Below, one piece after another: positions 2,655-16,519 of a stretch of DNA of 32,085 bases (within the stretch, counting starts at the first letter, position 1; every line of letters starts with the position of its first letter). Origin of the DNA: a virus; the IMG/VR virus record IMGVR_UViG_3300030098_001856, positions 9,394-41,478 of that record, one strand, 5' to 3'. The notes beneath the pieces are model-generated. The model saw only the letters and a list, made by a program, of their open reading frames with translations, searched no databases and was not told the DNA's origin. The position numbers were made by a program, and so were the translations under genes.

Positions 2655-2851
2655 AAAAAATTAAACAAGAACAGCTAGTAGATTTATTGACTACACAAAA
2701 GGAACTAGAAAGGACTGTCAATGAAATCAAACAACACAAAGAAGAATTTTTAAAACAAATTATCATGTACGAAAAAAGACTTGACCATTTACAAGCGGGC
2801 TTGTCTGAAACAATCAGTGTAATACTTGAGACAAAGAATGAAATACACTAA
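2651..2851 (+). CDS. Small coiled-coil protein, unknown function
   Basis: A 66-residue protein that is almost entirely charged amphipathic helix: KELERTVNEIKQHKEEFLKQ and then RLDHLQAGLSETISVILETK. The leucine/isoleucine spacing suggests a short coiled coil and so an oligomer. It starts with an ATG overlapping the TGA of the preceding gene by four bases, implying translational coupling. No enzyme motif is visible. Its place directly before the nuclease gene makes a recombination accessory role possible but unproven. Confidence 0.75.
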   Translation: MKKIKQEQLVDLLTTQKELERTVNEIKQHKEEFLKQIIMYEKRLDHLQAGLSETISVILETKNEIH

Positions 2852-3725
2852 TCAGCATAACGTACCCGAAGAAATAATTAGGGCTGTTCATAACGACAGT
2901 TATACTCGTGGCAATTCTATTATTTCTGTCACTGGATTGTTGCAACCTCCTCAAATTAGATTACTCACAGAGAAGAACTATGAAGACATGACAGTAGATG
3001 TCTCTGACGAGATATGGAAGCTTCTAGGTCAAAGTGTTCACACGATATTAGAGCGAGCCAATGAGGACAACGAGGACACGATTACAGAGCAGAGGATGTA
3101 TGCCAGTATCAAAGGGTGGAAGATAAGCGGTCAGACAGACAGCATTTCAGTCTCAGAGGGCATTCTAAAAGACTATAAGGTTACTTCCGCATGGAGCATT
3201 GTTTCTGCACTCACAGATGGCAAGCCTGAATGGGAGCAACAACTTAACTGTTATGCTTGGCTCAATAGAATGGAGCGTGGTGTGCATGTTAAAGGATTAA
3301 ATGTGATTGCTATCGCTAGAGACTGGAGCAAGTTTCAATATCAAAGAAGCGGTGGCAACTATCCAATATCACCAGTCTCAGTTATACCTATACCCCTTTG
3401 GGATAAAGAGAAACAAGAAGCCTTCATTGAGGAGAGGGTGGACTTACATCAAAAGTCTGAAGCAGAATTCTTAATCAATAAAGTCTTGCCTCCATGCAGT
3501 GATGCTGAGAGGTGGAAGAAGGGCGACACATACAGAGTTATGAAGAAAGGAAGGAAGTCAGCAGTAAGGGTGTTGCACTCACAGGAAGAAGCAGACGAGT
3601 ATCTAGAAAAACAAAAGGATACCAAAGGTTTAAGTGTTGAAATTGCTAAAGGTGTTTCAACTAGGTGTGAAAGCTATTGCGGTGTTTCACAGTTTTGTAA
3701 TCAATTTAAGGAGGAAGAAGGGTGA
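2838..3725 (+). CDS. Cas4/RecB-like PD-(D/E)XK exonuclease with Fe-S cysteines
   Basis: A 295-residue nuclease likely to resect DNA ends for the annealing protein encoded two genes downstream. The PD-(D/E)XK signature is visible in order: H68 in GQSVHTILER, D101 in SGQTDS, D112-x-K114 in LKDYKVTS, and the QLNCYAWL motif at 135-142. Four cysteines, C220, C277, C281 and C287 (one, then Cx3Cx5C at the C-terminus), match the arrangement that holds a 4Fe-4S cluster in Cas4 and AddB. An insert rich in basic residues (YRVMKKGRKSAVRV) separates the first cysteine from the rest. I chose ATG 2838 over a TTG at 2826 because ATG is the better codon and nothing conserved is lost. It overlaps the preceding gene by 14 bases. 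The nuclease fold is confident; the cluster and polarity are inferred. Confidence 0.88.
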   Translation: MKYTNQHNVPEEIIRAVHNDSYTRGNSIISVTGLLQPPQIRLLTEKNYEDMTVDVSDEIWKLLGQSVHTILERANEDNEDTITEQRMYASIKGWKISGQTDSISVSEGILKDYKVTSAWSIVSALTDGKPEWEQQLNCYAWLNRMERGVHVKGLNVIAIARDWSKFQYQRSGGNYPISPVSVIPIPLWDKEKQEAFIEERVDLHQKSEAEFLINKVLPPCSDAERWKKGDTYRVMKKGRKSAVRVLHSQEEADEYLEKQKDTKGLSVEIAKGVSTRCESYCGVSQFCNQFKEEEG

Positions 3726-3916
3726 AGTTTGTCGTTAGAACATATGCAACATGCGAATATGCCTATGAAGTAGAGGCTGATAGTTTGGGTGAGGCAGAGG
3801 ATAGATATTACGAAGGTTATGCGAAGGAACTCAATGGTGGAAACCCATTAGACATAAAGAATGAGCAAATAGATTTTATAAACAAAGTAAAAAATATGGA
3901 GAAAACAAATGGATGA
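3722..3916 (+). CDS. Small unknown protein between exonuclease and SSAP
   Basis: A 64-residue protein starting at GTG 3722, which overlaps the TGA of the exonuclease gene by four bases; a GGAGGAAGAAGG ribosome site precedes it. It begins MKFVVRTYATCEYAYEVEAD with a beta-strand-like start and then an AEDRYYEGYAKEL helix, a pattern like that of small phage proteins of the form 'strand, EV-A-SxxEAxxxY'. I cannot assign a function. Its end overlaps the annealing protein gene by 8 bases, so it is locked into the recombination cassette. Confidence 0.75.
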   Translation: MKFVVRTYATCEYAYEVEADSLGEAEDRYYEGYAKELNGGNPLDIKNEQIDFINKVKNMEKTNG

Positions 3917-4619
3917 ACTAGAATTCAAAGATATATGGGAGACACTCTACAACTTAGATGTATCCAAACATACAGAGGAGAAGATGAACTTAACTTATCT
4001 CTCTTGGAGCAGAGCATGGATGTTGTTGATGAGCGAGTATCCTCAAGCAACCTACACCTTTGTTGATTTTGAGGGTGTTCCATACAGGACTTTACCCGAT
4101 GGAACTACTGAGGTAGCGACACAGATAAAGATAGATAGCCACGTTAGAAGCATGATACTTCCAATAATGGACTATAAGAATAATGCTGTAGTCAATCCAA
4201 ATGCTAGGCAAGTAAACGATAATAGAATGAGATGCCTTGTTAAAAACTTAGCCATGTTTGGCTTAGGCATGAAGGTGTTTACACAGTTTGACGATCACCT
4301 CCCCGATGAGGAGAAAGATGAACAGCCTAAAGCAAAGAAGCAACCAAAGAAAGAAGAACCCAAAGAAGTATCAAAGCCTGAACCAAAGGCAGATGATACG
4401 AAGACCGAAGAATGGGCTGATGCTTTCATAGAGGCAACTGAGAAAACAATGACTTTGAATCAGTCAAAAGAGGAACTGCGATCTTTTATGAAAGCAAATG
4501 CACAAGGCTTCTCTGACTTAAAGATATTTTTCCCTGAGCGTAGGGATAAATTAAACGATGCTATCAGCAAATATGCAGATACATTACCTGAAAAAACCAT
4601 TAGCCAAACGGAGGAATAA
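3909..4619 (+). CDS. DUF1071/Sak3-type single-strand annealing protein
   Basis: A 236-residue protein expected to anneal complementary single strands in phage recombination, working with the exonuclease. The N-terminal half carries the family's hallmarks: HTEEKMNLTYLSWSRAWMLL (21-40), YPQATYTF, EVATQIKI, MILPIMDYKNNAV and MRCLVKNLAMFGLG (107-120). A lysine/proline/glutamate-rich linker (about 135-170) follows, then a helical C-terminal segment (WADAFIEATEKTM onward) that resembles small C-terminal helical domains in other phage annealing proteins. Length and order fit the family. The linker may separate the annealing ring from a partner-binding end. The next gene, an SSB-like protein, follows after 2 bases. 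Confidence 0.9.
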   Translation: MDELEFKDIWETLYNLDVSKHTEEKMNLTYLSWSRAWMLLMSEYPQATYTFVDFEGVPYRTLPDGTTEVATQIKIDSHVRSMILPIMDYKNNAVVNPNARQVNDNRMRCLVKNLAMFGLGMKVFTQFDDHLPDEEKDEQPKAKKQPKKEEPKEVSKPEPKADDTKTEEWADAFIEATEKTMTLNQSKEELRSFMKANAQGFSDLKIFFPERRDKLNDAISKYADTLPEKTISQTEE

Positions 4620-4621
4620 CA

Positions 4622-4921
4622 ATGGCATATGACGATAAACTACAATCTGATGGACAGATTTACACAAACAACTATAAAGCAAACGACAAACAGCCTGATT
4701 GGACTGGAAAGGTCACTCTCACAAAGGAATTGTTGAAATCCTTAGTGGGGCGACTAAGAGAAAAGAAGGCTGAAGACGTTGAAGTAAGGGTGGCTCTATG
4801 GAATAGAGTCTCTAAGAATGGCAATGAGTATAAGTATGCAAGACTTGATTTACCTCAAGAGCAGAAGAAACCTGAGCCTGAGCCTGAGCCTGATTTCAAT
4901 GATGATGATATACCTTTTTAA
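4622..4921 (+). CDS. SSB-like protein with DDDIPF C-terminal tail
   Basis: A 99-residue protein with a strong GGAGGA ribosome site. Residues 25-77 (PDWTGKVTLTKELLKSL, then VEVRVALWNRVSKNGNEYKY) suggest a small beta-rich domain. A Lys-Pro-Glu repeat linker (81-90) and an acidic tip DFNDDDIPF follow. That tip is the signature of bacterial single-stranded DNA-binding proteins, which use it to recruit repair and replication partners. The body is shorter than a standard OB-fold SSB (about 110 residues before the tail), so it could be a reduced SSB or a different protein that borrowed the tail. Position directly after the annealing protein supports a single-strand DNA role. Confidence 0.75.
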   Translation: MAYDDKLQSDGQIYTNNYKANDKQPDWTGKVTLTKELLKSLVGRLREKKAEDVEVRVALWNRVSKNGNEYKYARLDLPQEQKKPEPEPEPDFNDDDIPF

Positions 4922-4940
4922 ATCATCCCCCCAAATGATG

Positions 4941-4980
4941 AAGACTCTTTTGTGGTTTAAGTCTTAAAAGCGAAACCACA
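4941..4980 (+). promoter_or_regulatory. Intergenic RNA with alternative hairpins
   Basis: Two inverted repeats interlock in the gap 4922-5003. AAGACT (4941-4946) can pair with AGTCTT (4960-4965), and TGTGGTTT (4951-4958) can pair with AAACCACA (4973-4980). The first pairing traps one arm of the second inside its loop, so the two stems interfere. The gap also holds ATCAT/ATGAT around a C6 run (4923-4939) and a GAGGGG just before the next gene that could pair with the C run. No U-run follows. It may tune expression of the downstream small genes. Confidence 0.45.
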
Positions 4981-5003
4981 TATATAAACAATGAGGGGTA
5001 AAA

Positions 5004-5177
5004 ATGTCACCATTAGAGGTTTTTGAATACGATAAAGAGAAGTCTTACGACTATAATTATGCACAATGGAAGCTGATGTCAGATGATGAAAGAATTCATT
5101 TAGGGCAAAAGCCATACACAGAAGATATGGCAAAACAGATTTTCCACAAAATACATTATTTGAAGTACAGAAAATAA
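5004..5177 (+). CDS. 57-residue unknown protein
   Basis: ATG 5004 opens a 57-codon frame ending TAA at 5177, preceded by a GAGGGG ribosome site. The product begins MSPLEVFEYDKEKSYDYNYA and ends FHKIHYLKYRK. It is rich in Tyr, Lys and Asp/Glu with no hydrophobic segment. I do not recognise it. Same strand, fitting spacing and a clear ribosome site support a real gene. It stands alone between the structured gap (4922-5003) and a 12-bp repeat at 5178. Confidence 0.6.
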   Translation: MSPLEVFEYDKEKSYDYNYAQWKLMSDDERIHLGQKPYTEDMAKQIFHKIHYLKYRK

Positions 5178-5203
5178 TTTACCAGTCTAAAAAAAAATAT
5201 TTA
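5178..5203 (+). promoter_or_regulatory. TTTACCAGTCTA repeat, copy 1
   Basis: TTTACCAGTCTA at 5178-5189 is repeated exactly at 6759-6770. In both places it lies in one of the few non-coding gaps of the rightward operon and is followed by ATATTTA (here at 5197-5203, after an A-run). Sharing between two gaps upstream of same-strand genes suggests a promoter or binding site, perhaps for a phage-encoded factor. No match to a standard sigma70 promoter is obvious. Confidence 0.4.
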
Positions 5204-5230
5204 ACAAACAAAGCAAATGCGGGAGAACCC

Positions 5231-5458
5231 ATGATTAATTACGAAGGATACAAACAAATACTAGGAAACGTAAAACAGATGATACAAGCAGAACCATTAA
5301 CAGAAATGGAGAAAGACAGCTTGATATCAAAGATCAATAACTTTGAAGATGAAATAGATGAGATGATTTCAGGAAGAATTGCAGAACTAGAAATGTATGT
5401 AGAGCAACTAGAAAGTAGGGTTGCCAATAGTGAGAACACCAGTATAAGGCTACCATGA
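5231..5458 (+). CDS. Small helical protein, unknown function
   Basis: A 75-residue protein with a GGGAGA ribosome site just before ATG 5231. It starts MINYEGYKQILGNVKQMIQA and has long charged helices (EMEKDSLISKINNFEDEIDE, then ELEMYVEQLESRVANSE) with heptad-like spacing, so it is probably a coiled coil. No motif gives a function. Its stop overlaps the start of the DUF3310 gene by four bases. Confidence 0.7.
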   Translation: MINYEGYKQILGNVKQMIQAEPLTEMEKDSLISKINNFEDEIDEMISGRIAELEMYVEQLESRVANSENTSIRLP

Positions 5459-5691
5459 CTAAGATATGGAGAAAAAAAGAGTGGGAAGAATCTGAGAAGA
5501 TTAGCCCCTCTTATTACAAGAAGGGGATAGAGGTCACTGACTTTATAATCTCTAATGATCTCGGTTGGTGCGAAGGGAACATCGTTAAATATGTTCTTAG
5601 GCACAAAACAAAACACAAAGAGAATCCCAAACAAGATTTAATGAAAGCGAAGTGGTATTTGGAAAAACTAATTGAAAATTCAAAGACATAA
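5455..5691 (+). CDS. DUF3310 family protein (T7 gp1.7-related fold)
   Basis: A 78-residue protein with the DUF3310 pattern: SPSYYKKGIEVTDFIISNDL, then GNIVKYVLRHKTK, then DLMKAKWYLEKLI. The family occurs across many phages, and part of the larger T7 gp1.7 nucleotide kinase belongs to it. The isolated short domain here has no known enzymatic activity. It starts at an ATG overlapping the previous stop (ATGA) and belongs to the early operon. Family membership is confident; a role in nucleotide metabolism is only suggested by the T7 relative. Confidence 0.85.
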   Translation: MTKIWRKKEWEESEKISPSYYKKGIEVTDFIISNDLGWCEGNIVKYVLRHKTKHKENPKQDLMKAKWYLEKLIENSKT

Positions 5692-5760
5692 TGAGCCGAG
5701 AAGAAAAATGTTTGCGTGTTGTTGGAACGGCTCATGTGTGGGTTGGGGGGAATAATCCCC
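5692..5760 (+). promoter_or_regulatory. Two inverted repeats in gap before membrane gene
   Basis: TGAGCCG (5692-5698) directly after the DUF3310 stop pairs with CGGCTCA (5728-5734) across a 29-base loop. A tight second hairpin GGGGA-ATAA-TCCCC lies at 5747-5760. No U-run follows, so neither is a standard terminator. They may stabilise RNA ends or set the level of downstream translation. Confidence 0.4.
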
Positions 5761-5782
5761 TCAGCTTAATTAGGAGAAAGAA

Positions 5783-6028
5783 ATGAAAGCGTTAGGTTTA
5801 TTTATATTTTTACTAGGAATGTTTGTATTCACAAGCGGTTGGGTGCTTTTAGATTTGGCATCTATGCCATTGAAGAATGATCTTTATTCAATAGATATAT
5901 TGGGATTCTTTAACAATATGTTTTCCTCTGATCCAACTGTCGCAAGCTTCCAGTCATTCATGTCTTTACTGTTTATTATTATGGGATGCTTGATCTGTTA
6001 TAGCGGTAGCATTTTAATCAAATATTAA
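5783..6028 (+). CDS. Small membrane protein, two transmembrane helices
   Basis: An 81-residue protein with a good ribosome site (AGGAGAAAGAA then ATG). Two hydrophobic segments stand out: residues 3-25 (ALGLFIFLLGMFVFTSGWVL) and 60-80 (SLLFIIMGCLICYSGSILI), joined by a polar loop with LDLASMPLKNDLYSID. It would sit in the inner membrane. It is expressed with recombination genes rather than the lysis cassette, so early host takeover or exclusion is as likely as lysis. I do not recognise a family. Confidence 0.75.
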   Translation: MKALGLFIFLLGMFVFTSGWVLLDLASMPLKNDLYSIDILGFFNNMFSSDPTVASFQSFMSLLFIIMGCLICYSGSILIKY

Positions 6029-6045
6029 AGCAAGGAGGTATAACA

Positions 6046-6384
6046 ATGGTTGAGATTGAAGAATCATGGATGCAAAAGATTAGAGACATTGCACCTGTCA
6101 TAGAGAAAACCGAGTATGAAGTCTTTAAATGTGAGGCAGAGGTTAAGAAGCTTCATGCGACATTAAAGATGCAAGCATTATCAGATGGCATGAAAACATC
6201 TTCTGCTCAGGAAACTTGGGCTGAATCACAGCAAGAACTATATCTAGCAAGACTAAAGGTTGGTGTTGCTAAGGGTACACTCTCTGCTTTAAAGATTAAT
6301 TTAAAGTCATTAGAGATTGGATTCGAGGAATGGAGAACGAAAATGGTTAATGCTAGAGAGGAAAGAAAAAGATATGGGGCTTAA
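6046..6384 (+). CDS. Helical coiled-coil protein of unknown function
   Basis: A 112-residue protein preceded by a perfect AAGGAGGT ribosome site. It is nearly all helical and charged (WMQKIRDIAPVIEKTEYEVF, then KCEAEVKKLHATLKMQALSD, later LYLARLKVGVAKGTLSALK), suggesting a coiled-coil bundle. No catalytic motif is seen. Its last 11 bases overlap the start of the Ref-like nuclease gene, so the two are probably translated in a coupled way. Confidence 0.75.
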   Translation: MVEIEESWMQKIRDIAPVIEKTEYEVFKCEAEVKKLHATLKMQALSDGMKTSSAQETWAESQQELYLARLKVGVAKGTLSALKINLKSLEIGFEEWRTKMVNAREERKRYGA

Positions 6385-6706
6385 AGGCAGAGTGCCGAAC
6401 CAAGCAGAACTAGACCATATGGGTAGGGTTGCAGAGATTGGTTGCATCGTCTGTAGAAACAAGGGTCTTTATTCGCCATCGGAAATACATCACACCGAAG
6501 GCAAGACAAAAGAAGGGGCGCACCTAAAAGTGTTGCCCCTTTGTTTTGAGCATCACCGAATGGGCAGTGGAAAAGAACCCATTAGCAGACATCCCTATAA
6601 AAAAAGATTTGAAGAAGCCTACGGAACTGAGAAAGAATTATTAAAGCAAGTAGATGATATACTGGATAAAAGACAAGATGAGTTTTTTGACAACATACCC
6701 TTTTAA
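6374..6706 (+). CDS. Ref-like (RecA-dependent) HNH-type nuclease with DNIPF tail
   Basis: A 110-residue protein resembling the Ref family, known from phage P1 as a nuclease that needs RecA filaments. Visible zinc/HNH elements are C24 and C27 in IGCIVCRNK, H39-H40 in SEIHHTEGK, then LKVLPLCFEHHRMG (C57, H60, H61) and SRHPYKKRFEEAYGTE. I chose ATG 6374, with GAGGAAAG just upstream, over an earlier ATG at 6317: the extra residues read through the preceding gene's frame and match nothing in the family. The C-terminus FFDNIPF resembles an SSB tail, unusual for this family as far as I know. It overlaps the previous gene by 11 bases. Confidence 0.82.
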   Translation: MGLKGRVPNQAELDHMGRVAEIGCIVCRNKGLYSPSEIHHTEGKTKEGAHLKVLPLCFEHHRMGSGKEPISRHPYKKRFEEAYGTEKELLKQVDDILDKRQDEFFDNIPF

Positions 6707-6848: not shown

Positions 6849-7193
6849 ATGAAAACACAAAGCGCAAAAGCAAAAGGTAGAAAACTACAACAATGGTTTA
6901 CTAGGTTGTTAGTGGATGCTTTAAGTTTGGATGAGGATGATCTAGAAAGTAGACCGATGGGTTCTCAAGGCGAAGATATCATTATGGGTAAGCAGTCAAG
7001 GGATCGTTTCCCTTATTCAATAGAATGCAAGAACCAAGAGAGAGTCAATGTTTGGCAATCATATGAGCAAGCAAAGGAAAACTGCAAGGGATATGAGCCA
7101 TTGTTGGTCATTAAGAGAAACAGGAGCAAGCCATTAGTGGTAGTGGATGCTGAACATTTTGTAAATTTATTTAAGGAGAAAGAGAATGAGTAA
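6849..7193 (+). CDS. Holliday-junction-resolvase-like PD-(D/E)XK endonuclease
   Basis: A 114-residue nuclease of the small PD-(D/E)XK type, probably resolving branched recombination or replication DNA before packaging, the job done by endonuclease I in T7. Catalytic elements visible in order are KAKGRKLQQWFTRLL near the N-terminus, MGSQGEDIIM with E42/D43, SIECKNQE with E59-x-K61, and VWQSYEQAKENC. The order GED...ExK...W-x5-QA is that of Hjc/RecU-like and related phage resolvases. A GAGGTGATAG ribosome site precedes the ATG. It ends 8 bases into the next gene. The nuclease fold is confident; junction specificity is inferred. Confidence 0.85.
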   Translation: MKTQSAKAKGRKLQQWFTRLLVDALSLDEDDLESRPMGSQGEDIIMGKQSRDRFPYSIECKNQERVNVWQSYEQAKENCKGYEPLLVIKRNRSKPLVVVDAEHFVNLFKEKENE

Positions 7194-7443: not shown

Positions 7444-7816
7444 AGAACAACTAAAGGAACAGCTAGAGGAAAGAAAAAAGAAGTGGTGGGGATGGCATAA
7501 AGAGAATCCTCAAGTGTGGGAAAAGTTTGAGGAATATACACTGGAAGCTATAGCAACAGGTAGGAATCATTATTCACATTGGGCTATAGTAAATCGTATT
7601 AGATGGAACAGGGAAATAGAAACGAAGGGTGGTGAGTTTAAGATTAGTAATGACTATATTTGTTTTTATGCCCGACTGTTTCATGCCAAACATCCTGAAC
7701 ACAATGAGTTTTTTAAATTAAAACCCCTGAAAGAAGAAAAACTAATTTCTGACTTAGTTTCCCAAAGAGATCATTGGAACGTTAGCTTTCTCCCTCAAAG
7801 CGGGAATAATCGCTAA
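7430..7816 (+). CDS. Conserved phage protein, last rightward gene
   Basis: A 128-residue protein. Three consecutive ATGs (7430, 7433, 7436) follow an AAGGTG ribosome site, so the start is uncertain by one or two codons; a GTG at 7424 overlaps that site and is unlikely. The core WGWHKENPQVWEKFEEYTLE, then GRNHYSHWAIVNRIRWNREI, TKGGEFKISNDYICFYARLF and KHPEHNEFF, matches a protein family I know from many phages and some bacteria, whose function is unknown. Its last 63 bases overlap, tail to tail, the end of the giant late protein gene on the other strand. The final residues (SFLPQSGNNR) look poorly conserved. Confidence 0.8.
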   Translation: MMMLEEQLKEQLEERKKKWWGWHKENPQVWEKFEEYTLEAIATGRNHYSHWAIVNRIRWNREIETKGGEFKISNDYICFYARLFHAKHPEHNEFFKLKPLKEEKLISDLVSQRDHWNVSFLPQSGNNR

Positions 7817-10800
7817 TCGTCTGTCTCTATCTAACTCTAGCTCCCTAATCATATCTGACTTGGCAGACATAGAGATATCTGTTCTCTGCATGATCCTGTC
7901 TCTTTTCTTTCTGTAGTTCGCCATATATCTATTGATGGCATTGATCTGAGATTTAACTTGGAAGATTCCTTTGTTGTGTTCCCTGTAAGCAGTGAGTTCG
8001 TCATACCTTCCTTGATCTTTGAGTTTGTTCAAAGTAATTGTAGCTCTTTCTACTTCTGATCTCAGTTCATAGAATTGTTGCTGTAAACCGCCAGACTTAT
8101 CCAGATCAATAAATAATCTTTTTAATACTGGTATATCGTTTATGTTTGGAGGGATTACTGGAGTTCCAGTGATGCTTCTTGTAAATACATCTATGATATC
8201 CAAGACATATCCGCCAAGCGTTCCTGTGTACCCATTGATGACATGCTCTATTTTGATGGGTGATATGTTGAAAAACTCTCCCATGATCCTAGCTAGTTCA
8301 TTGGTAGACTTTCTTGATTGATAAGCGGGCAAAGATTTTTGTTGATAGTAAGGAACAATCTCTGAGTTGGTGAAGCTGTTTCTGTTTATCGCTACCTCAA
8401 AGATAGGTTTAATTGCTTGTATGCTGATATCACCGCCTAAGAATGGCACTTCAGCAGAAGTTCCTAGCTGTCTGAAAATAGATTTAGCTGGGTCTTTCTC
8501 AACACCTCTACCAATGGTTGCATCTATTAGCCTCTCAGGAATGGCTTTAAACAACATGCCGACCTCAAACGGAATAGGAATCTTAATTGCATATCCTAAT
8601 CCAGTTGGAATAATCCAATTATCATCTCTGACTTCTCGCTTCACTTCCTTGTATTCATCGGTATCTGATACCAGTAAATAATATAATGCTGTCGCAGCGA
8701 TCATCGCAGAAGCTCGCAAAGCAAACTTTCTTTGTATTCTATTCTTCACATCATCTAGCGTTTCGCCTTCTTGAAGTCTTTCTGTGGCTGAATATTGTCC
8801 TGAAGCAGAGCGATACAAGACATCAAGACCTTGAATCCTAGCGTTCATAAATGGTATGGCAGATGTTACAACCCTAAACATTGGTGATAATCCCCTTCGA
8901 CCAAAGTTAATGATCTCTAATGCTTGATAGGCAGCTTCAGATTGTGCCTCAGCTTCAGATGAGCCTCTTTTCTTCATGTCATTATAGACCGCATTGTATA
9001 CAGCCAAACGAGTTGCACCATCAGACTTAGTGGTCAAAGCACCCAAGCCATCCCAAAGTTTATAGAAAGCGTTCTCAGCGTTCATCCCATTATCAGGTGA
9101 TAATCCTTTTTGCCTTCTCGCCCTATCCATTAACTGCTTAACACTTCCCTCATCATTTTGGAAATCGTATCCACCGATTACACCAAACTTTTCCAAGTCT
9201 GATATATCGGCAAACATATTTTTAACAGTGTCAACCATTGGGGTAAAGCCATCCCCATATAAAGGTGCGCCTGAAGTTACTGCTGCTGACAGGGTATCCC
9301 TAAGCAAGTTGACAACAACAAATCCTGGATCACGAGTAACTGTGTCTCTAAGTATGGCTGAAGGGAAAGCCAAGAAACGAGTAACCGCATCTGTCTTGAC
9401 CCCACCAATGGCTTGTACTCCATGAAACAATTCAACGTCATCTATTTCCCAATATTGTTTCTGACCATCTTCAAAAGAGAATATAGTGTTTAAGTTTCCC
9501 TCTTTCTTTTCTCTAGGGCTAACCCTTCTTGCCTCGCCCATTGTCTCTAAATCTCTTAACAGTTTAGATGTACCATCATTTTTCATAGCACCCGTTAGGA
9601 TTGATAGTGAGTTTCTAGCAATTGCTTCTACAGGATTAACATTAATTTCTCTTTGAGAGCCTTTCATCTCAATGTTTAATGGGTTATTAGGCAATGAGCC
9701 ACCGCCAATAGTAGGTGCTGTTATTCCTTCATCGTCTACCATTTCTCTGTAGAAAGGATAATAACTGGATTGTTCTCTCCAAAGCTCTGCTTGTTCTGCA
9801 TTCAACAACCCCTTGTCCTCAGCAAAACTTATTAATTCATTGTTCCATTTTTGATAGTTGTTCCAAGCTTCAACAACGCTTTTGTATTTTGTTTCAATAA
9901 CCCTGATTTGCTCTAAGTCTTTAGGTGTAATAGGTGTTTCAAACTCTCTGCCTTCTTGTTGTAGTTTTTGAACCCTTTTTAATTTGGCATATATACCAAA
10001 GACTTCTTCTAAATTAACACTTGGGTTTGCATACAATGGAGCCATGATCTGCATAAGACCACCCGTTCCTTTGTTGCCAGCAATAAATGGATTGTAACGA
10101 GTGCTAATTTCTAAGGCTTGCACATTTGTTAAAGCATCTTCGCCTTCTATTGTGCTTTGTGGAGTACCAATCATTAACATGGATTGGAAAACCCCTCTAG
10201 CTCTATCGCCCATTCTTAAAGCAGCCATTGTTGCTGTAGAAGCAGCATTGTTGGCAAGCCTTACATCTTCATTAGACTCACTGCCAGCTAAGATTTTTTT
10301 ATCTACTTTATCTAATTTATCTATAAAGTTTTGTCGTGTGTCTTTAAATGCTTTCCTAATGTTTTCTACTGGATTGTTAATGACATCTAAAAGCCTAACC
10401 CCGTATGGTTGTGTTGGCTCTGGAGACTTTCCTGTTCTTTTAATAACATCATTAAACTCTGATGGGATAGATGCCCTTGAAAATAAAGGAACATTCTTTG
10501 ATGGCATTGGTGCTGTGATGTCTTCATTAAACTCTATAGCAGCCTTTAATGCGACATCTGACGCATTTATATTATAAATAGGTATCTCACCTCTAGGAGT
10601 TTGTTTGACGATCTCCTCCGCCCTATCAACGGCTTCCCTGAGTTTTATGTTTTCGCTTGTGTTTTCTTCGGTAGCAAATCGAGATGACTCTTGCATAAGA
10701 CTTGTACCACGCCTATCACCAAGAGATTGTATTAAAGCATTGCTTATTTCTATTGTGTCAGCCGATAACATATCTTGACTAAGACTAAGAACTTCAGATA

Positions 10801-13800
10801 AAGCACTATTTTGTTTTGCTGGAACTCCAAGTAGCTCTCTGATTATTTCAACAAACTCATCCCACACAGATTTCTTGCCTTGAGGGGCATAAGGTATTTT
10901 TTCTAAATATTGTTGAAAATCTAAGTCTGTTAGACCATAAGTAATTAATTCTTGTATATTTTCTTTGTCAAAAACTGGATGGTCTTCTCCACGAATTTCA
11001 TATTTATTGTATCCTTTAGAAACTAAATATTGCATTTCATCTAGAGTGCCAACAAACTCTGAGCCTAATTCTTTTCGACCCTCCTCGTAAACTTGATCCA
11101 TTTCATCTTTGATACTGTTTTGATGATCTATTAGCCTGTCTCTTAATCTCGAAAAACCCTCATAAGCTTTTTGTGATTTAGGTGTACCCAAATAAGACCT
11201 TCGACCCGCTTCAAACAAAGGTAAAGTAGCCCCGTGTATTGCTTCATGCAATATTACTCTATAGTTTAATCCAGAGGCGGTATTAAAATTGTTTAAATAA
11301 ATATCAATATTTTTTGTAGCACCGCCTGTATCCGTTGAAGCTGAAGGAAAAGTTACTGCAACACCTTTTGCATAGTCATTTAAAAAATGATCTGTAAGAA
11401 TTTCTTTAGCTCCTTCTTTATTTCTAATTAATTCAAGAGTTTCATCTGTAAGATGACTGTTGTTAACAGCTTTATTTCCTTTGCTGTCACCCTGTATAAC
11501 ATTAATAGAATAAGTAACGCCTTGTTTCTCAAACTTCATTAATTGTTCTTTGGTTTTTCTAGCAATGATTGATAAGCTTTTATCTTCTTTTGCTATAACA
11601 TCCATAACCTCAGTTAAAGACTTTCCTTTTATTTTAGAAAGCACTTCATATGGGGGAAAATCTACAGGAGTATTTTTATTTATTGTTGCTCTAGAAAACA
11701 GTGGAGTTGTTGCCCTAAAGTCTGCCTCAAACCAAGATTCATTTAACAAGTCATCTAAGGTTGGGCTTGATACTGTAGCTTGCCTTCTTTTATATCCATC
11801 AGGATTAAAATATAATCTAAATTTATTGTTGCCTAAATCTTCGTAAAACTTTTCTTGATTTCTATTGTTTCTAAAAATCTCTCCAGATTTAGTATCAAAC
11901 TCTTGTCTTTCTACATACCCATAGTCTTCCAACACAGCCCTTGATATTCCTATACTGGATGCAGTTAAAGGCACATCAGGGAAGTATTGCCTATCTGGAC
12001 CATAGGTATCGTCATCTAATATATAAAGCTCTTCCCCTTTAAATTCATCAATATACTCATCTAAAGCATCAGGATCATCTATAAAGTCAGGATGGTTTCT
12101 TAATCTTCTTTTGTTTTCTCTTGATATAGAAGCAATGTTTTTTGATGACCTAGAAAACAATGGCACTTGACCGCTTGCTTCTACTTCTTGTGATCTTTCT
12201 AAATTAATTACTTCGTCTTGTAGTTTGTATATCTCTCTAGAAATTCTATCCCTAGTATTTGGAGACATCGTATCTAAATCAAGTTGTCTTTGTAGACCAT
12301 AGATAACCTGATTCAAAGATTCAATTCGCTCATCCGTTGGAGAGGTGTATGAGGATGTTGTAGTATCATCCTCCTGTTGTTGAAGAGTTGTTTCTAAAGT
12401 TATTCCTTCAGCTCCAACCTCTAAAGCATTAGAAGCGTTTTGCAAGAAAGACGAAAGAGCTGTGTCTAATTTAGCTGGAACACCCAACAAGCCCCTCATG
12501 GTTTCTACAAAACTATTCCATAAAGATTTCTTTCCTTTGGGTGAATAAGGTATTTTTTCTAAAAATTCTTGAAAGGGTCTATTGGTTAAGCCATAAGTTA
12601 TAAGCTCGGCAACATCTTTTGTCGGGCTTCCTTTTTGGATGCCATTAACTTTATAAGCAAAATTATGTTTTTCAAAATTTGTAATAGCAAATTTATTTTT
12701 AGATTTTATACGTTGAATATAGTCAGACATTGTTTTAGATTCGTTTTCTGCTATTGAATCTAATTCATCAAACTTTCCTTCGTCTGCTAATTTTTTCCAT
12801 TCTTTTCCTTTTTCTGAAATATAATCATTAACCTTGTCTTGTAATAAAGTTAATTCTTTGTAAGCTTTTTTTCCTTTTGCTGTTTTGTTTGGGTTAAGCA
12901 TTTGAGCTACAGTTGCAGAATGCAAAACTTCATGTAAAGCAACTTCAAAATTTACTCCATTACTAATTCTGCTTTGGTAGTTTTTAGAATTATTTAATCG
13001 TAATGTAAATTTATTTCTGGTTAGACTTCTATATGAAATATGACCCTGAGCGCCAGCTAAATTTTTATTGCTGCTGTCAATAACAAAAGGAAATTTAATG
13101 CCTTTCTTTTGTAATTGCTTTAAAGACTCAAAAGATTTTCTAGCTATTATTCTATAGTCTTCACTAGGAGCATTATCAGCAAGCCACTTAGCAACCTCAA
13201 CTGTTGACGTATCATTAACACCTCTATAACCACCGCTTGTTCTTGGAGTTTTTTCAATAATTCCTGCTGATATTAAACCATTTACAATCTGTTCTTTTTG
13301 TTGGTTATATTCTTCAGTGCTTAGGCTTTCTTTATTGTATGGAATAATGCTAGATGGAGGTGGATTAGGAATGTTTGAACCATCAATAAAAACACCAGTG
13401 ATCGGAGATGTATCTGCATCAGTTTCACTAAATGGTTTTGTTGGGTCTATTCTTGGTACTACTACAGGTCTGCCAGTAACTACATCATCAGCATCCATAT
13501 CTTCTTCTGTGCCAATCTCATCTTCTACTTCTACAGCCTGTTCTTGATCGAAAGCAGAAGGTGGAAGCTTGTCTGTTTGCATCAGCGTTCTGATAACATC
13601 TCTTTCTCTACTGCCTACTTTGCCAGCTTCTATTTCACTAAAGATTTGTGATGTTCTTTTAAATCCAGAAATACGCATGGCTTGACCCATAGACCTAAAG
13701 AACTCAACCATTTTATTAAAGATGCCTTTAGCTTTAGGTGGCATTTGTACTTTAAAGTTTCTAGCTCTATACATTTCTGCAATGGCTTCTTCTACAAAAA

Positions 13801-16519
13801 ACTCTTCTTGATACTCTCTTCCACGAGTCGCTACTGTCTCAGAGTTTAAAGCAATGGCTCTATCATAAAAGGTTTGACCTTCAAATTGAGCATCATAACT
13901 TTTTGGAACCTTTGCTCTTTTAACCTGCTTTCTAAGATATTGATATTCTGATTCTGTAATTAAATCTTTTGTACGGAGAGCATGAATCATTTCATGGTCT
14001 AGAACCTGCATTAATCTATTTTCTATTTCTTCCTGTGAGGCTGTGCCATCAGGATTAACCGCATTAAGAGACAAGAAAATAGTATCTGTGCTTACATCAT
14101 ACTCACCTTCAACAGCACCTTCTGTTGGTGTAGCTCTAGTTATTCTTGGGTCGTAAATAATATTACCAGAAGCATCTTCTGCTAGAGTTGTTGTAGAAAG
14201 AATGTCATCACTAACGATAACTGCTGTTTCTTTTAAACCTCTTTTGTTTAATATCTTTTTAGCTTCTTGTGCAAACTTATTTATTTTTCCTTGCTCAACG
14301 GCTTCAGCAAAGTTAATAATCTTAGGCTCTATTTCTTTTGGTGGAAGCGTTCCCTTTTGATTCTCTCTTGCTTTTTCTACCAATGTTTGAATAACATCTT
14401 CAGGAACTTTGTTTTCTTGTCTTAGTCTTGCTTCATATTCATCGGGAGTTTCATTAAAAGCCTCAGACCTTCTAGCAATATCGTACTGAAAGTTTTTTCT
14501 AATTTTATATTTGTTTGTTCCCTCAACCTTTTCGGCACGACCACTGGTAGTAAGATCACTAATAAATTGTTCTGTGGCTGTTTTGTTTTTATATGTTGGG
14601 CTGGTTTCTTCTGATAAGAGTTCTTTAACAGTAAACTCTGCATCTTGACTGGCTTTAGACGCAACAAAATTGGCAACATCTATTGCCGTGTATTCTCTGG
14701 GTCTAAAGTCTGGGAATTTTGTTTCGGTGCTAAACGTAGGTAGGGAGTGTATGCGAGCCAAGAAGAGTTCCTTAGCAGGTTTTCCTGCTTTCGTGATATT
14801 TTCAGTACCAGTCCAGCGTAATGCAGCGTATCTAACCGCAGGTGATTTAAAGTCTAAATCAATATTTTTTGACGCAGCCAAATCTTTCATTGCCTTAACG
14901 CTTGTATTGACTTGTTCTTTGTCAGCTCTAATAGAAGGAATGCCATCTTTTTCGGATTGTTCAAACACTACTTGTGAACGATCTTTTAAAAGATTGGTGT
15001 AGTCTTTCTTATTAAGAATCTTTTGAGTCTCAGCCATCGAGTAATTACTCTTTAGGTCAAGACCTTTTGATTGAACGTATTTGCCAATCTTGTTTAGTTT
15101 TGGACCGAGCCTTGCAACTCTTGCTTGACTAAACGCTTTTTTGTTTGGTCCAAAAATATCTGTTCTTTCTTTCTGTAAAACTTTCTTTTGTTCTTCAGAT
15201 AAGGTTGTATCAAGGTCGATAACGCTGGATAGATTAACCTCTCCAATATTTGGGTCACGAATCGTTGATCCGATTACATCAGCAGTAGAGCTTTCAGGAA
15301 GTCCTAAGTTATACTTTGCTTGATCTACTTCATTCTTTGTTATCTTTCTTTGGTAATTGTTTTCTTGTTTGTCTTTAAAAACAAGTGCCTCTGTTTCTTG
15401 AGCAAAGGTTTGAACAATTGGATTTTCAGGATCAGTAGCATCTATAACATTAAATGCACCATTGGCATCTTCAATAACTTCTAATGATGGGATAATGTCT
15501 GGATTTGCTGGCAGTGTTATTTCATTAGGCTTATCGCCTATTGGTTGATCTTGAGCAACCTCAACATCTCCTTGATCTATACCTTTTTGGAATTTGTTTT
15601 CTTCAATGGTAGAAGCTACATTATCTCTAGCCGTTTTTTCATACTCTCTTAGATAAGCTCTGCTTTTGGTTCTTCCTGACATTGCATTAACAGCAAAGTC
15701 AGCAAATCCACCAACTGCACCACCTATAGTAAACTCATCAAAAAGACTTTCGCCTATTGGTAATTCATCACTATATAAACCACGAGCTAATAAATCTTGA
15801 GACAAACTTGCTGTAACTTCTTGTAAAGCTTCTACACCACCTGATTGTGCAGCCGAACTCAAAGCTCCTTTTATGTCCATATACTTTGAAGCATTCTTAG
15901 GAACTTTCTTTAACAAGTTAAATACTGGCAATACTTCAGATAAACCTATAACCCCACCGCCTAACTCTGCAAATGTCTCAGCAAGCGCTCCTACGTCTTC
16001 TCCTTGCTCCTTAGCCATGTTCATTCGGTCAACCTGTTGGGCTATACCTGCTGGAGCAGCAATTGAAGCTGGGGCTAAAAACATTGGGTTACGAGCATAT
16101 GGTAGTTTTGCGCCAACACCCCTAGTCAGAAGTGATTTACCTATAGCACCAGCACCTAGAAACGGACCAAATGAACCCAAGCCTTCTCCAAACTTAGTCA
16201 TCCATTTGTCAGCATAGGCTGGATCAGCAGCCAATGATGATTCGGTTCTTAAAAAATCTTTGTATTGTTGCAAGCCTTGAACAAGGTCGCTGTCGTTGCC
16301 TATGTCAAATAATGATGCTACACCTAAAGGTACATCAGCAACCATAGATAAAGCCCCTCTAGGTACGCCCTTAAGTGTTTCTTTGGCTTGCCCTAGAATG
16401 GTTGTTTCGTCTAAATCATCCCCAAACTTTTCTTTAACAATTCTAACAAAGCGCTGTCTATCTAGTGGGTCTGTCGGAATATTATATTGATTTCCATTGG
16501 GGTCAGTATAAATACTCAT
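7754..16519 (-). CDS. Giant virion/polyvalent protein with three HExxH metallopeptidase signatures
   Basis: A 2921-residue protein, last gene of the late operon, in the place where podophages encode large ejected internal proteins. The N-terminus (1-290) has Gly/Ala-rich hydrophobic stretches and an ALQEV segment. Three zincin-like signatures follow: HEMIH at 842-846 with candidate third ligands E911/E915; HEVLH at 1196-1200 with E1305; HEAIH at 1758-1762 with E1857. The second and third belong to a duplicated unit (about 1125-1366 and 1650-1917), both ending ELITYGL, then LEKIPY, GKKS and LLGVPAK. PLFSR recurs at 1453, 1606 and 2011. The C-terminal part resembles polyvalent-protein region LPD38 (RRGLSPMFRV and PFMNARIQGLDVL, about 2538-2571), followed by a hydrophobic helix near 2600. 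Families of this type are thought to be injected with phage DNA and to disarm host defences; that role here is inferred. No frameshift is seen. Confidence 0.85.
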   Translation of the reverse strand: MSIYTDPNGNQYNIPTDPLDRQRFVRIVKEKFGDDLDETTILGQAKETLKGVPRGALSMVADVPLGVASLFDIGNDSDLVQGLQQYKDFLRTESSLAADPAYADKWMTKFGEGLGSFGPFLGAGAIGKSLLTRGVGAKLPYARNPMFLAPASIAAPAGIAQQVDRMNMAKEQGEDVGALAETFAELGGGVIGLSEVLPVFNLLKKVPKNASKYMDIKGALSSAAQSGGVEALQEVTASLSQDLLARGLYSDELPIGESLFDEFTIGGAVGGFADFAVNAMSGRTKSRAYLREYEKTARDNVASTIEENKFQKGIDQGDVEVAQDQPIGDKPNEITLPANPDIIPSLEVIEDANGAFNVIDATDPENPIVQTFAQETEALVFKDKQENNYQRKITKNEVDQAKYNLGLPESSTADVIGSTIRDPNIGEVNLSSVIDLDTTLSEEQKKVLQKERTDIFGPNKKAFSQARVARLGPKLNKIGKYVQSKGLDLKSNYSMAETQKILNKKDYTNLLKDRSQVVFEQSEKDGIPSIRADKEQVNTSVKAMKDLAASKNIDLDFKSPAVRYAALRWTGTENITKAGKPAKELFLARIHSLPTFSTETKFPDFRPREYTAIDVANFVASKASQDAEFTVKELLSEETSPTYKNKTATEQFISDLTTSGRAEKVEGTNKYKIRKNFQYDIARRSEAFNETPDEYEARLRQENKVPEDVIQTLVEKARENQKGTLPPKEIEPKIINFAEAVEQGKINKFAQEAKKILNKRGLKETAVIVSDDILSTTTLAEDASGNIIYDPRITRATPTEGAVEGEYDVSTDTIFLSLNAVNPDGTASQEEIENRLMQVLDHEMIHALRTKDLITESEYQYLRKQVKRAKVPKSYDAQFEGQTFYDRAIALNSETVATRGREYQEEFFVEEAIAEMYRARNFKVQMPPKAKGIFNKMVEFFRSMGQAMRISGFKRTSQIFSEIEAGKVGSRERDVIRTLMQTDKLPPSAFDQEQAVEVEDEIGTEEDMDADDVVTGRPVVVPRIDPTKPFSETDADTSPITGVFIDGSNIPNPPPSSIIPYNKESLSTEEYNQQKEQIVNGLISAGIIEKTPRTSGGYRGVNDTSTVEVAKWLADNAPSEDYRIIARKSFESLKQLQKKGIKFPFVIDSSNKNLAGAQGHISYRSLTRNKFTLRLNNSKNYQSRISNGVNFEVALHEVLHSATVAQMLNPNKTAKGKKAYKELTLLQDKVNDYISEKGKEWKKLADEGKFDELDSIAENESKTMSDYIQRIKSKNKFAITNFEKHNFAYKVNGIQKGSPTKDVAELITYGLTNRPFQEFLEKIPYSPKGKKSLWNSFVETMRGLLGVPAKLDTALSSFLQNASNALEVGAEGITLETTLQQQEDDTTTSSYTSPTDERIESLNQVIYGLQRQLDLDTMSPNTRDRISREIYKLQDEVINLERSQEVEASGQVPLFSRSSKNIASISRENKRRLRNHPDFIDDPDALDEYIDEFKGEELYILDDDTYGPDRQYFPDVPLTASSIGISRAVLEDYGYVERQEFDTKSGEIFRNNRNQEKFYEDLGNNKFRLYFNPDGYKRRQATVSSPTLDDLLNESWFEADFRATTPLFSRATINKNTPVDFPPYEVLSKIKGKSLTEVMDVIAKEDKSLSIIARKTKEQLMKFEKQGVTYSINVIQGDSKGNKAVNNSHLTDETLELIRNKEGAKEILTDHFLNDYAKGVAVTFPSASTDTGGATKNIDIYLNNFNTASGLNYRVILHEAIHGATLPLFEAGRRSYLGTPKSQKAYEGFSRLRDRLIDHQNSIKDEMDQVYEEGRKELGSEFVGTLDEMQYLVSKGYNKYEIRGEDHPVFDKENIQELITYGLTDLDFQQYLEKIPYAPQGKKSVWDEFVEIIRELLGVPAKQNSALSEVLSLSQDMLSADTIEISNALIQSLGDRRGTSLMQESSRFATEENTSENIKLREAVDRAEEIVKQTPRGEIPIYNINASDVALKAAIEFNEDITAPMPSKNVPLFSRASIPSEFNDVIKRTGKSPEPTQPYGVRLLDVINNPVENIRKAFKDTRQNFIDKLDKVDKKILAGSESNEDVRLANNAASTATMAALRMGDRARGVFQSMLMIGTPQSTIEGEDALTNVQALEISTRYNPFIAGNKGTGGLMQIMAPLYANPSVNLEEVFGIYAKLKRVQKLQQEGREFETPITPKDLEQIRVIETKYKSVVEAWNNYQKWNNELISFAEDKGLLNAEQAELWREQSSYYPFYREMVDDEGITAPTIGGGSLPNNPLNIEMKGSQREINVNPVEAIARNSLSILTGAMKNDGTSKLLRDLETMGEARRVSPREKKEGNLNTIFSFEDGQKQYWEIDDVELFHGVQAIGGVKTDAVTRFLAFPSAILRDTVTRDPGFVVVNLLRDTLSAAVTSGAPLYGDGFTPMVDTVKNMFADISDLEKFGVIGGYDFQNDEGSVKQLMDRARRQKGLSPDNGMNAENAFYKLWDGLGALTTKSDGATRLAVYNAVYNDMKKRGSSEAEAQSEAAYQALEIINFGRRGLSPMFRVVTSAIPFMNARIQGLDVLYRSASGQYSATERLQEGETLDDVKNRIQRKFALRASAMIAATALYYLLVSDTDEYKEVKREVRDDNWIIPTGLGYAIKIPIPFEVGMLFKAIPERLIDATIGRGVEKDPAKSIFRQLGTSAEVPFLGGDISIQAIKPIFEVAINRNSFTNSEIVPYYQQKSLPAYQSRKSTNELARIMGEFFNISPIKIEHVINGYTGTLGGYVLDIIDVFTRSITGTPVIPPNINDIPVLKRLFIDLDKSGGLQQQFYELRSEVERATITLNKLKDQGRYDELTAYREHNKGIFQVKSQINAINRYMANYRKKRDRIMQRTDISMSAKSDMIRELELDRDRRLAIIPALREKANVPMISLGN
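10768..11570 (-). repeat. Internal duplication copy B (third HExxH unit)
   Basis: Encodes residues about 1650-1917 of the giant protein: IIARKTKEQLMKFEKQGV, a HEAIH motif, ELITYGLTDLDFQQYLEKIP and ELLGVPAKQNSALSEVL. It is clearly related at protein level to copy A, and most similar in the last 60 residues. The N-terminal part differs by insertions. Boundaries are approximate. Confidence 0.75.
12421..13145 (-). repeat. Internal duplication copy A (second HExxH unit)
   Basis: Encodes residues about 1125-1366 of the giant protein: IIARKSFESLKQLQKKGI, a HEVLH motif, ELITYGLTNRPFQEFLEKIP and GLLGVPAKLDTALSSFL. It pairs with copy B. The shared order of helix, HExxH, ELITYGL and LEKIPY supports duplication of one metallopeptidase domain followed by divergence. 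Confidence 0.75.

Follow-up and report, generated by a model that had tools for sequence, protein, structure and literature searches.

An acidic C-terminal tip of the type carried by single-stranded DNA-binding protein (SSB) recurs on two groups of HNH nucleases encoded in recombination operons of marine phages. We analyzed a 32,085-nucleotide stretch (the window; positions 9394–41478 of the 41,478-base virus record IMGVR_UViG_3300030098_001856), in which a recombination operon encodes a 99-residue SSB-like protein and a Ref-like HNH nuclease that both end in such a tip. In the maintenance of bacterial genomes, the SSB tip has a central place as a docking peptide, and it is usually described for SSBs. 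Both tips in the window are a true, selected feature with a wider distribution than first reported, and very probably represent a docking peptide. For the nucleases, we consider it rather probable that the tip is a portable peptide of the SSB C-terminal (SSB-Ct) type, which would place a stripped-down nuclease in SSB-tip pockets.

The two ends, given in the original prediction as NDDDIPF on the SSB-like protein and FFDNIPF on the nuclease, were read directly from the DNA. The translation of 4622–4921 (99 aa) ends FNDDDIPF (codons GAT GAT GAT ATA CCT TTT TAA at 4901–4921), and the Ref-like frame ends DEFFDNIPF (codons GAC AAC ATA CCC TTT TAA at 6689–6706). Among frames of at least 30 codons in the whole 41,478-base record, only these two carry an acidic IPF tip. 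The features concerned are as follows.

4622..4921, plus strand: 99-aa SSB-like protein, type 1, with a beta-beta-alpha-beta-beta core (~residues 1–78) and a Pro/Glu-rich tail; not a recognized OB-fold SSB.
4901..4918, plus strand: C-terminal tip DDDIPF of the SSB-like protein; Pro-Phe in 54/54 and strict tip in 52/54 distinct homologs.
6374..6706, plus strand: Ref-like HNH nuclease, 110 aa, core only (PF16786, 3plw profile match; start chosen by homologs).
6683..6703, plus strand: C-terminal tip FFDNIPF of the Ref-like nuclease; it extends the protein beyond its last core helix and is optional.

A tip was called strict if the protein ended in [ILVM]PF and the three residues before this held one or more D/E but no K/R; we counted distinct complete open reading frames (ORFs) of at least 40 residues. 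The loci comprised IMG/VR relatives of both window proteins (37 loci plus the best 80 of 82). To these we added 66 loci with relatives of type 2, a second SSB-like protein, and the Ref lineage found beside type 2 (best 80 of 188); some contigs recur. In viral loci, the tip was restricted to SSB-like proteins and HNH nucleases: it was carried by 52/54 type 1 and 7/54 type 2 SSB-like proteins, 36/106 Ref-like proteins, and all 24 HNH proteins of the DUF968 type, and by none of 6504 ORFs that were neither SSB nor HNH. Because 52/54 and 36/106 stand against 0/6504, the tip is more frequent than chance on both window proteins and looks selected. Since SSB-like proteins and nucleases served as queries for collecting the loci, those families are over-represented, and the zero among the remaining ORFs is the useful background; the best-80 sets, including that of the DUF968-type relatives below, came from tipped queries and may favor tipped members. 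Loci from GenBank and metagenome-assembled genomes (MAGs) yielded the tip on 0/16 Ref-like and 3/820 other proteins, of which one is the annotated SSB of Oceanospirillum phage GJ44 and the other two are hypothetical Pelagibacter phage proteins related to each other.

The conserved tip positions are acid-x-[LI]-Pro-Phe, the linker before them is variable, and in both families Pro and Phe are kept through differing synonymous codons. For this codon analysis, the REF set and the HNH2 members from L273–L352 were picked for a PF end, whereas the 30/30, 24/24, and 66/66 counts given here for DUF968-type proteins are unselected. It had been proposed that both ends mimic SSB or compete with it at host sites, or that they bind one phage partner in common. 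The part of this proposal that stands is a conserved peptide on both proteins that behaves like a docking motif, with an invariant tip, a variable linker, and synonymous codon usage. Conservation of the last residues, suggested as a check, was borne out for the SSB-like protein (52/54) and only in part for the nuclease (36/106).

The second group of tipped nucleases emerged among 22 tip-scoring proteins outside the SSB and Ref models, 19 of which belonged to a single HNH family of ~114 aa. Their genes lie directly after the type 2 SSB-like gene, and four of the proteins matched DUF968 (PF06147, 7e-10 to 9e-12, 39.5–45.8 bits vs a cut-off of 27.8). The match starts at profile position 77–85 of 171, and the N-terminal Orf/NinB-like domain is absent. 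The LPF end was found in 30/30 loci of this HNH-only group. An alignment scan returned 300 relatives, and among the best 80 of these, 66/66 distinct nuclease/SSB pairs had a strict nuclease tip. Leu-Pro-Phe was kept in 68/68 sequences through six Leu, four Pro, and two Phe codons behind a varying linker. The tip is thus universal in the examined HNH-only DUF968 group. It was absent from four cultured DUF968-type proteins (Azospirillum phage Cd, Pantoea AH07, cdtI, and Serratia BZS1) and from a frame of Planktothrix phage Pag-Yong1. The annealing gene of these operons was Sak in seven loci (by the Sak profile), and six further typed loci held ERF (L156, L174, and L186) or a phrog_11717 protein (L147, L165, and L189). 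The DUF968-type tip therefore stays across a switch of annealing family, and it does so whatever the tail of the neighboring SSB-like protein. This large, mostly uncultured group, of which the best 80 of 300 relatives were read, offers a simple, testable rule for how such nucleases reach their DNA.

The identity of the window nuclease is well anchored. It matched RecA_dep_nuc (PF16786) at 5e-17 (62.4 bits vs a cut-off of 26.9), the P1 Ref structure (PDB 3plw) was matched with the profile at E 9.8e-16, and Cys and His were invariant in the Ref-like alignment (n = 46). Translation more likely starts at ATG 6374 (110 aa) than at TTG 6317 (129 aa), because homologs begin M[AG]LKGR or MKGR. The 110 residues begin at the core, and the long basic N-terminal arm of P1 Ref is absent; this arm characterizes P1 Ref and not the family at large.

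The original prediction named tipless homologs in related phages as evidence against it, and taken literally this applies to the nuclease. Tipless Ref-like proteins (70/106) often accompany the same SSB-like protein: 34 distinct pairs combined a type 1 SSB tip with a Ref lacking a strict tip (one of these, at L049, ends DDRPF), and 18 were tipped on both. P1 Ref and nine other Refs of cultured phages had no tip. Tipped Refs end in DNIPF, DDLPF, NDIPF, ETLPF, DHLPF, and similar sequences, whereas most tipless ones end at or just past the last core helix; L026 and L032 carry another long extension. A tree built from 72 distinct cores, of which 30 were tipped, gave six tip changes (6–8 over bootstraps), two of them forced by supported branches, and a tree of 81 rows gave eight. 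Totals differ since distinctness was judged on whole ORFs (106) or on the core sequence (72-row tree); membership limits were 1e-5 in one count and 1e-20 for the 81-row tree, from which L242 and L245 were left out for a core pattern mismatch. The Ref tip is therefore an optional extension, gained or lost repeatedly. Because tipless homologs exist, it is not an obligatory part of Ref, which is still compatible with an optional docking arm. In the 20 codons that follow the stop codon of the tipless Refs, none of the three frames held an [ILV]PF followed by a stop. Tip loss by a recent stop is thus not supported, as no tip remnant lies downstream; neither recent truncation nor gain is shown by this.

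The SSB-like protein is less readily classified. It had no PF00436 match at E ≤ 1, and neither had anything else in the genome. No record of the "phages" collection matched it or either of two type 2 proteins, and NCBIfam was uninformative. Its AlphaFold2 model (35 sequences; mean predicted local distance difference test (pLDDT) 74, predicted template modeling score (pTM) 0.51) is a beta-beta-alpha-beta-beta fold with a low-confidence tail. The fold had no PDB match at E ≤ 0.001, a VIA Z of at most 3.7, and six BFVD matches at E ≤ 0.001, none named for a function. PHROG families labeled "single strand DNA binding protein" matched 26/35 members, weakly. The name SSB-like was given on the basis of these labels together with the operon and the tip, and single-stranded DNA binding is putative.

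Type 2 SSB-like proteins have a different tail. Terminal Phe is present in 54/54 distinct proteins, compared with 390/6504 other ORFs, and beside tipped nucleases the end is often KIPF, KVPF, KAPF, DPAF, DAAF, or TSKF. Throughout L147–L189 and L273–L352, Lys often precedes the last three residues (KIPF, KVPF, KAPF). The Lys-bearing tails may be a recoded form of the tip that serves a partner of its own. Other tip-like ends were observed in further loci. A 96-aa protein encoded directly after an SSB-like gene (L023 5296–5586) ends YDPNKLPF, a weak Lys tip, and no like-tipped relatives were seen. In Planktothrix phage Pag-Yong1, a gene annotated as "putative RNA 2'-phosphotransferase" (L267 2312–2869) ends SVNDDDIPF and is flanked by an ERF-type gene on one side and a tipless DUF968-like HNH frame (2998–3291, not annotated as such) on the other; its product looks like an SSB. 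The hypothetical gp14 of Pelagibacter phage HTVC026P (L112 4645–5079), encoded two genes upstream of a tipless Ref, ends LLDDEIPF, and a related protein (L113 631–1149) ends DMDDEIPF; both are candidate SSBs.

The operon of the window runs in the order exonuclease, Sak, SSB-like protein, small genes, coiled-coil-like protein, Ref-like nuclease, and resolvase-like protein, and its remaining annotated members are as follows.

2826..3725, plus strand: exonuclease of the recombination operon (phrog_2139 exonuclease, 3.4e-49).
3909..4619, plus strand: Sak single-strand annealing protein (PF06378, 4.2e-35), with a separate four-helix C-terminal domain at residues 167–223; candidate phage partner.
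6046..6384, plus strand: 112-aa coiled-coil-like protein (by eye), overlapping the nuclease start; constant neighbor of Ref.
6849..7193, plus strand: PD-(D/E)XK-type resolvase-like protein (PF24608, 1.4e-06; phrog_244, labeled RusA-like Holliday junction resolvase, 6.6e-20).

The Sak core is Rad52-like: its AlphaFold2 model aligned with 80-alpha Sak (8pq8) at Z 11.9 over 116 residues (root-mean-square deviation 3.1) and with human RAD52 at Z 8.8. The C-terminal domain had weak helical structure matches only (CorA, Z 6.2; EXOG, Z 6.0), and the absence of the Redbeta and Orf C-terminal domains from its structure matches proves nothing. The gene cluster of the 112-aa protein occurred in 56/72 distinct Ref loci (29/30 tipped, 27/42 tipless), and its product is possibly a partner of Ref; the window copy showed a sub-threshold match to Mu Gam-like proteins (phrog_253, E 0.12). 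Three neighbors differed in frequency between tipped and tipless Refs: the PDDEXK_15 resolvase-like gene found at 6849–7193 in the window (15/25 vs 1/31), a 75-aa gene (14/27 vs 0/31), and a RusA-like gene identified by eye (4/25 vs 18/33). As only two supported independent pairs were available, significance was out of reach, and a partner gene tracking the tip was not used as an argument. Elsewhere in the window, a 2921-aa ORF on the minus strand (7754–16519) contains three HExxH-like stretches (DHEMIHA, LHEVLHS, and LHEAIHG) and is metallopeptidase-like by eye.

The distribution of tips between partners suggested an either/or rule, with the tip on the SSB or on the nuclease. Among 35 pairs of Ref with type 2 SSB-like proteins, none had both tips, six had the SSB tip only, 22 the nuclease tip only, and seven neither (Fisher p 0.001), although six of the 22 were DUF968-type proteins caught by the Ref model and the pattern contained one supported independent contrast only. 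We predicted that the rule would extend to the DUF968-type family and rejected it when both tips occurred together in 16/64 pairs there; in type 1 operons, to which the window belongs, 18 distinct pairs have both. Since many tipped nucleases stand beside type 2 tails without acid or IPF, the nuclease tip is neither copied from the neighboring SSB tail nor a side product of that gene.

We propose that these nucleases, which are bare HNH cores, are addressed by their last residues. P1 Ref without its N-terminal 76 residues showed no DNA binding in the part of PMC4330346 that covers it, and passages of PMC4118853 describe an Orf/NinB-like domain at the N-terminus of full-length DUF968 proteins; the window nuclease lacks the former module and the second family the latter. 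The [acid]-x-[L/I]-Pro-Phe-COOH end would slot into the Phe-pocket/basic-lip sites that recognize SSB tips, placing the nuclease at single-stranded or recombining DNA, where it may compete with, or work alongside, phage and host SSB tips. Sections of PMC10164576 describe the SSB-Ct pocket as a Phe pocket, a basic lip, and a basic ridge that hold the terminal Phe, the carboxylate, and the acids, with binding strongly weakened by loss of Phe or a Pro-to-Ser change. Docking is the best reading because the nuclease tip has these pocket-binding features (terminal Phe, Pro, and acids). Several observations weigh against it. The strict tip was missing from 70/106 distinct viral Ref-like proteins and from 16/16 in GenBank and MAGs; tipless Refs are core-only as well, which means that the absence of the arm does not have to be made up for by a tip; once kinship is counted, none of the genes in these loci significantly tracks the Ref tip; and the either/or prediction failed in the larger DUF968 set.

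As partners, we prefer host SSB-interacting proteins, to which we give close to an even chance, with a phage recombination protein as the less probable candidate. SSB tails from MAGs with Ref contigs are similar to the tip, although these contigs may be binned phage contigs: five of six fetched MAG SSB loci had a readable tail (DMDDDIPF, IKGGDLPF, EEDDEIPF, DLDDEIPF, and DMDDDIPF). The tip is also retained when the annealing protein changes, and the record of the phage, which may be a fragment, shows no match to SSB (PF00436) or family A polymerase (PF00476). A serious rival, though a somewhat unlikely one, dispenses with host proteins: both the nuclease and the SSB tips would dock on a phage protein, most likely on the annealing protein (at its helical C-terminal domain) or on the exonuclease, and a phage recombination complex would thereby be assembled. 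The order exonuclease-annealing protein-SSB-like protein-nuclease is kept in both nuclease groups, the window Sak has a separate helical C-terminal domain, and HK620 Sak4 recognizes, and requires, the six C-terminal residues (NDYPPF) of the cognate SSB of that phage in the portion of PMC5928155 that treats it. However, the persistence of the DUF968-type tip beside Sak, ERF, or phrog_11717 argues against a single dedicated annealing partner, and two exonuclease types accompany tipped Refs. SSB tips may nevertheless be bound by each of several annealing proteins that are unrelated to one another.

Two further readings need no SSB-tip pocket. An autoregulatory acidic tail, folding back on the nuclease or binding the phage SSB-like protein at its DNA-binding face much as SSB tips weakly do on their own OB domain, is improbable. 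Acidic C-terminal tails of SSB do contact the DNA-binding site in the relevant passages of PMC10164576 and PMC5928155, but an electrostatic tail needs no invariant Leu-Pro-Phe, as found in 66/66 distinct DUF968-type pairs (best 80 of 300 loci), and most distinct Ref-like proteins have no tip. A sliding-clamp-binding peptide or a degron is more improbable still. Some clamp-binding motifs do sit at C-termini and end in Leu-Phe; here, the upstream conserved Gln is absent, the conserved acid-x-[LI]-Pro-Phe is in its features that of SSB-Ct, and the SSB-like protein of the same operons ends alike.

Returning to docking through an SSB-Ct-type tip, we speculate, as a rather unlikely possibility, that phages have repeatedly reused the SSB tip as a portable address tag. 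Two HNH groups would thereby enter the host SSB network and cut where the host replicates or repairs its DNA, or else cut phage recombination intermediates. In this view, the phage SSB-like tail often drifts to a non-acidic form (KIPF, KVPF, APF, PAF) that avoids the host network or differs from it. The natural variants IPF, LPF, DRPF, KVPF, and APF could be used to map what SSB-tip pockets accept.

Simple term matching in open-licence PMC papers found no report of a nuclease with an SSB-type tip. Among known systems, HK620 Sak4-SSB is comparable in that a phage annealing protein adjoins a phage SSB and is recruited by the six residues at the end of that SSB (as set out in part of PMC5928155); Sak4 is RecA-like, whereas the window Sak is Rad52-like, and the parts of that paper covered here contain no tipped nuclease. 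DUF968/Orf-HNH nucleases, such as PhiNM1 Gp16 and E. coli YdfU, have their HNH part in common with the second tipped family. Gp16 is described as NinB-like plus HNH in a passage of PMC12817073, and the DUF968 label for it is ours; full-length members, as far as these sources describe them, have the Orf/NinB-like N-terminus, whereas the tipped ones are HNH only, ~114 aa. P1 Ref (PDB 3plw) shares a homologous HNH core over 74 positions with the window nuclease. Unlike this core-only, tipped protein, it has a 76-aa basic DNA-binding N-terminus (described within PMC4330346) and a tipless end, EMANIMH. The tip itself is like the SSB-Ct of bacterial and phage SSBs, with its acidic run, hydrophobic residue, Pro, and terminal Phe, and its invariant tip behind a variable linker; the difference is that the peptide here also occurs on HNH nucleases without an SSB domain, where it would serve to dock the nuclease.

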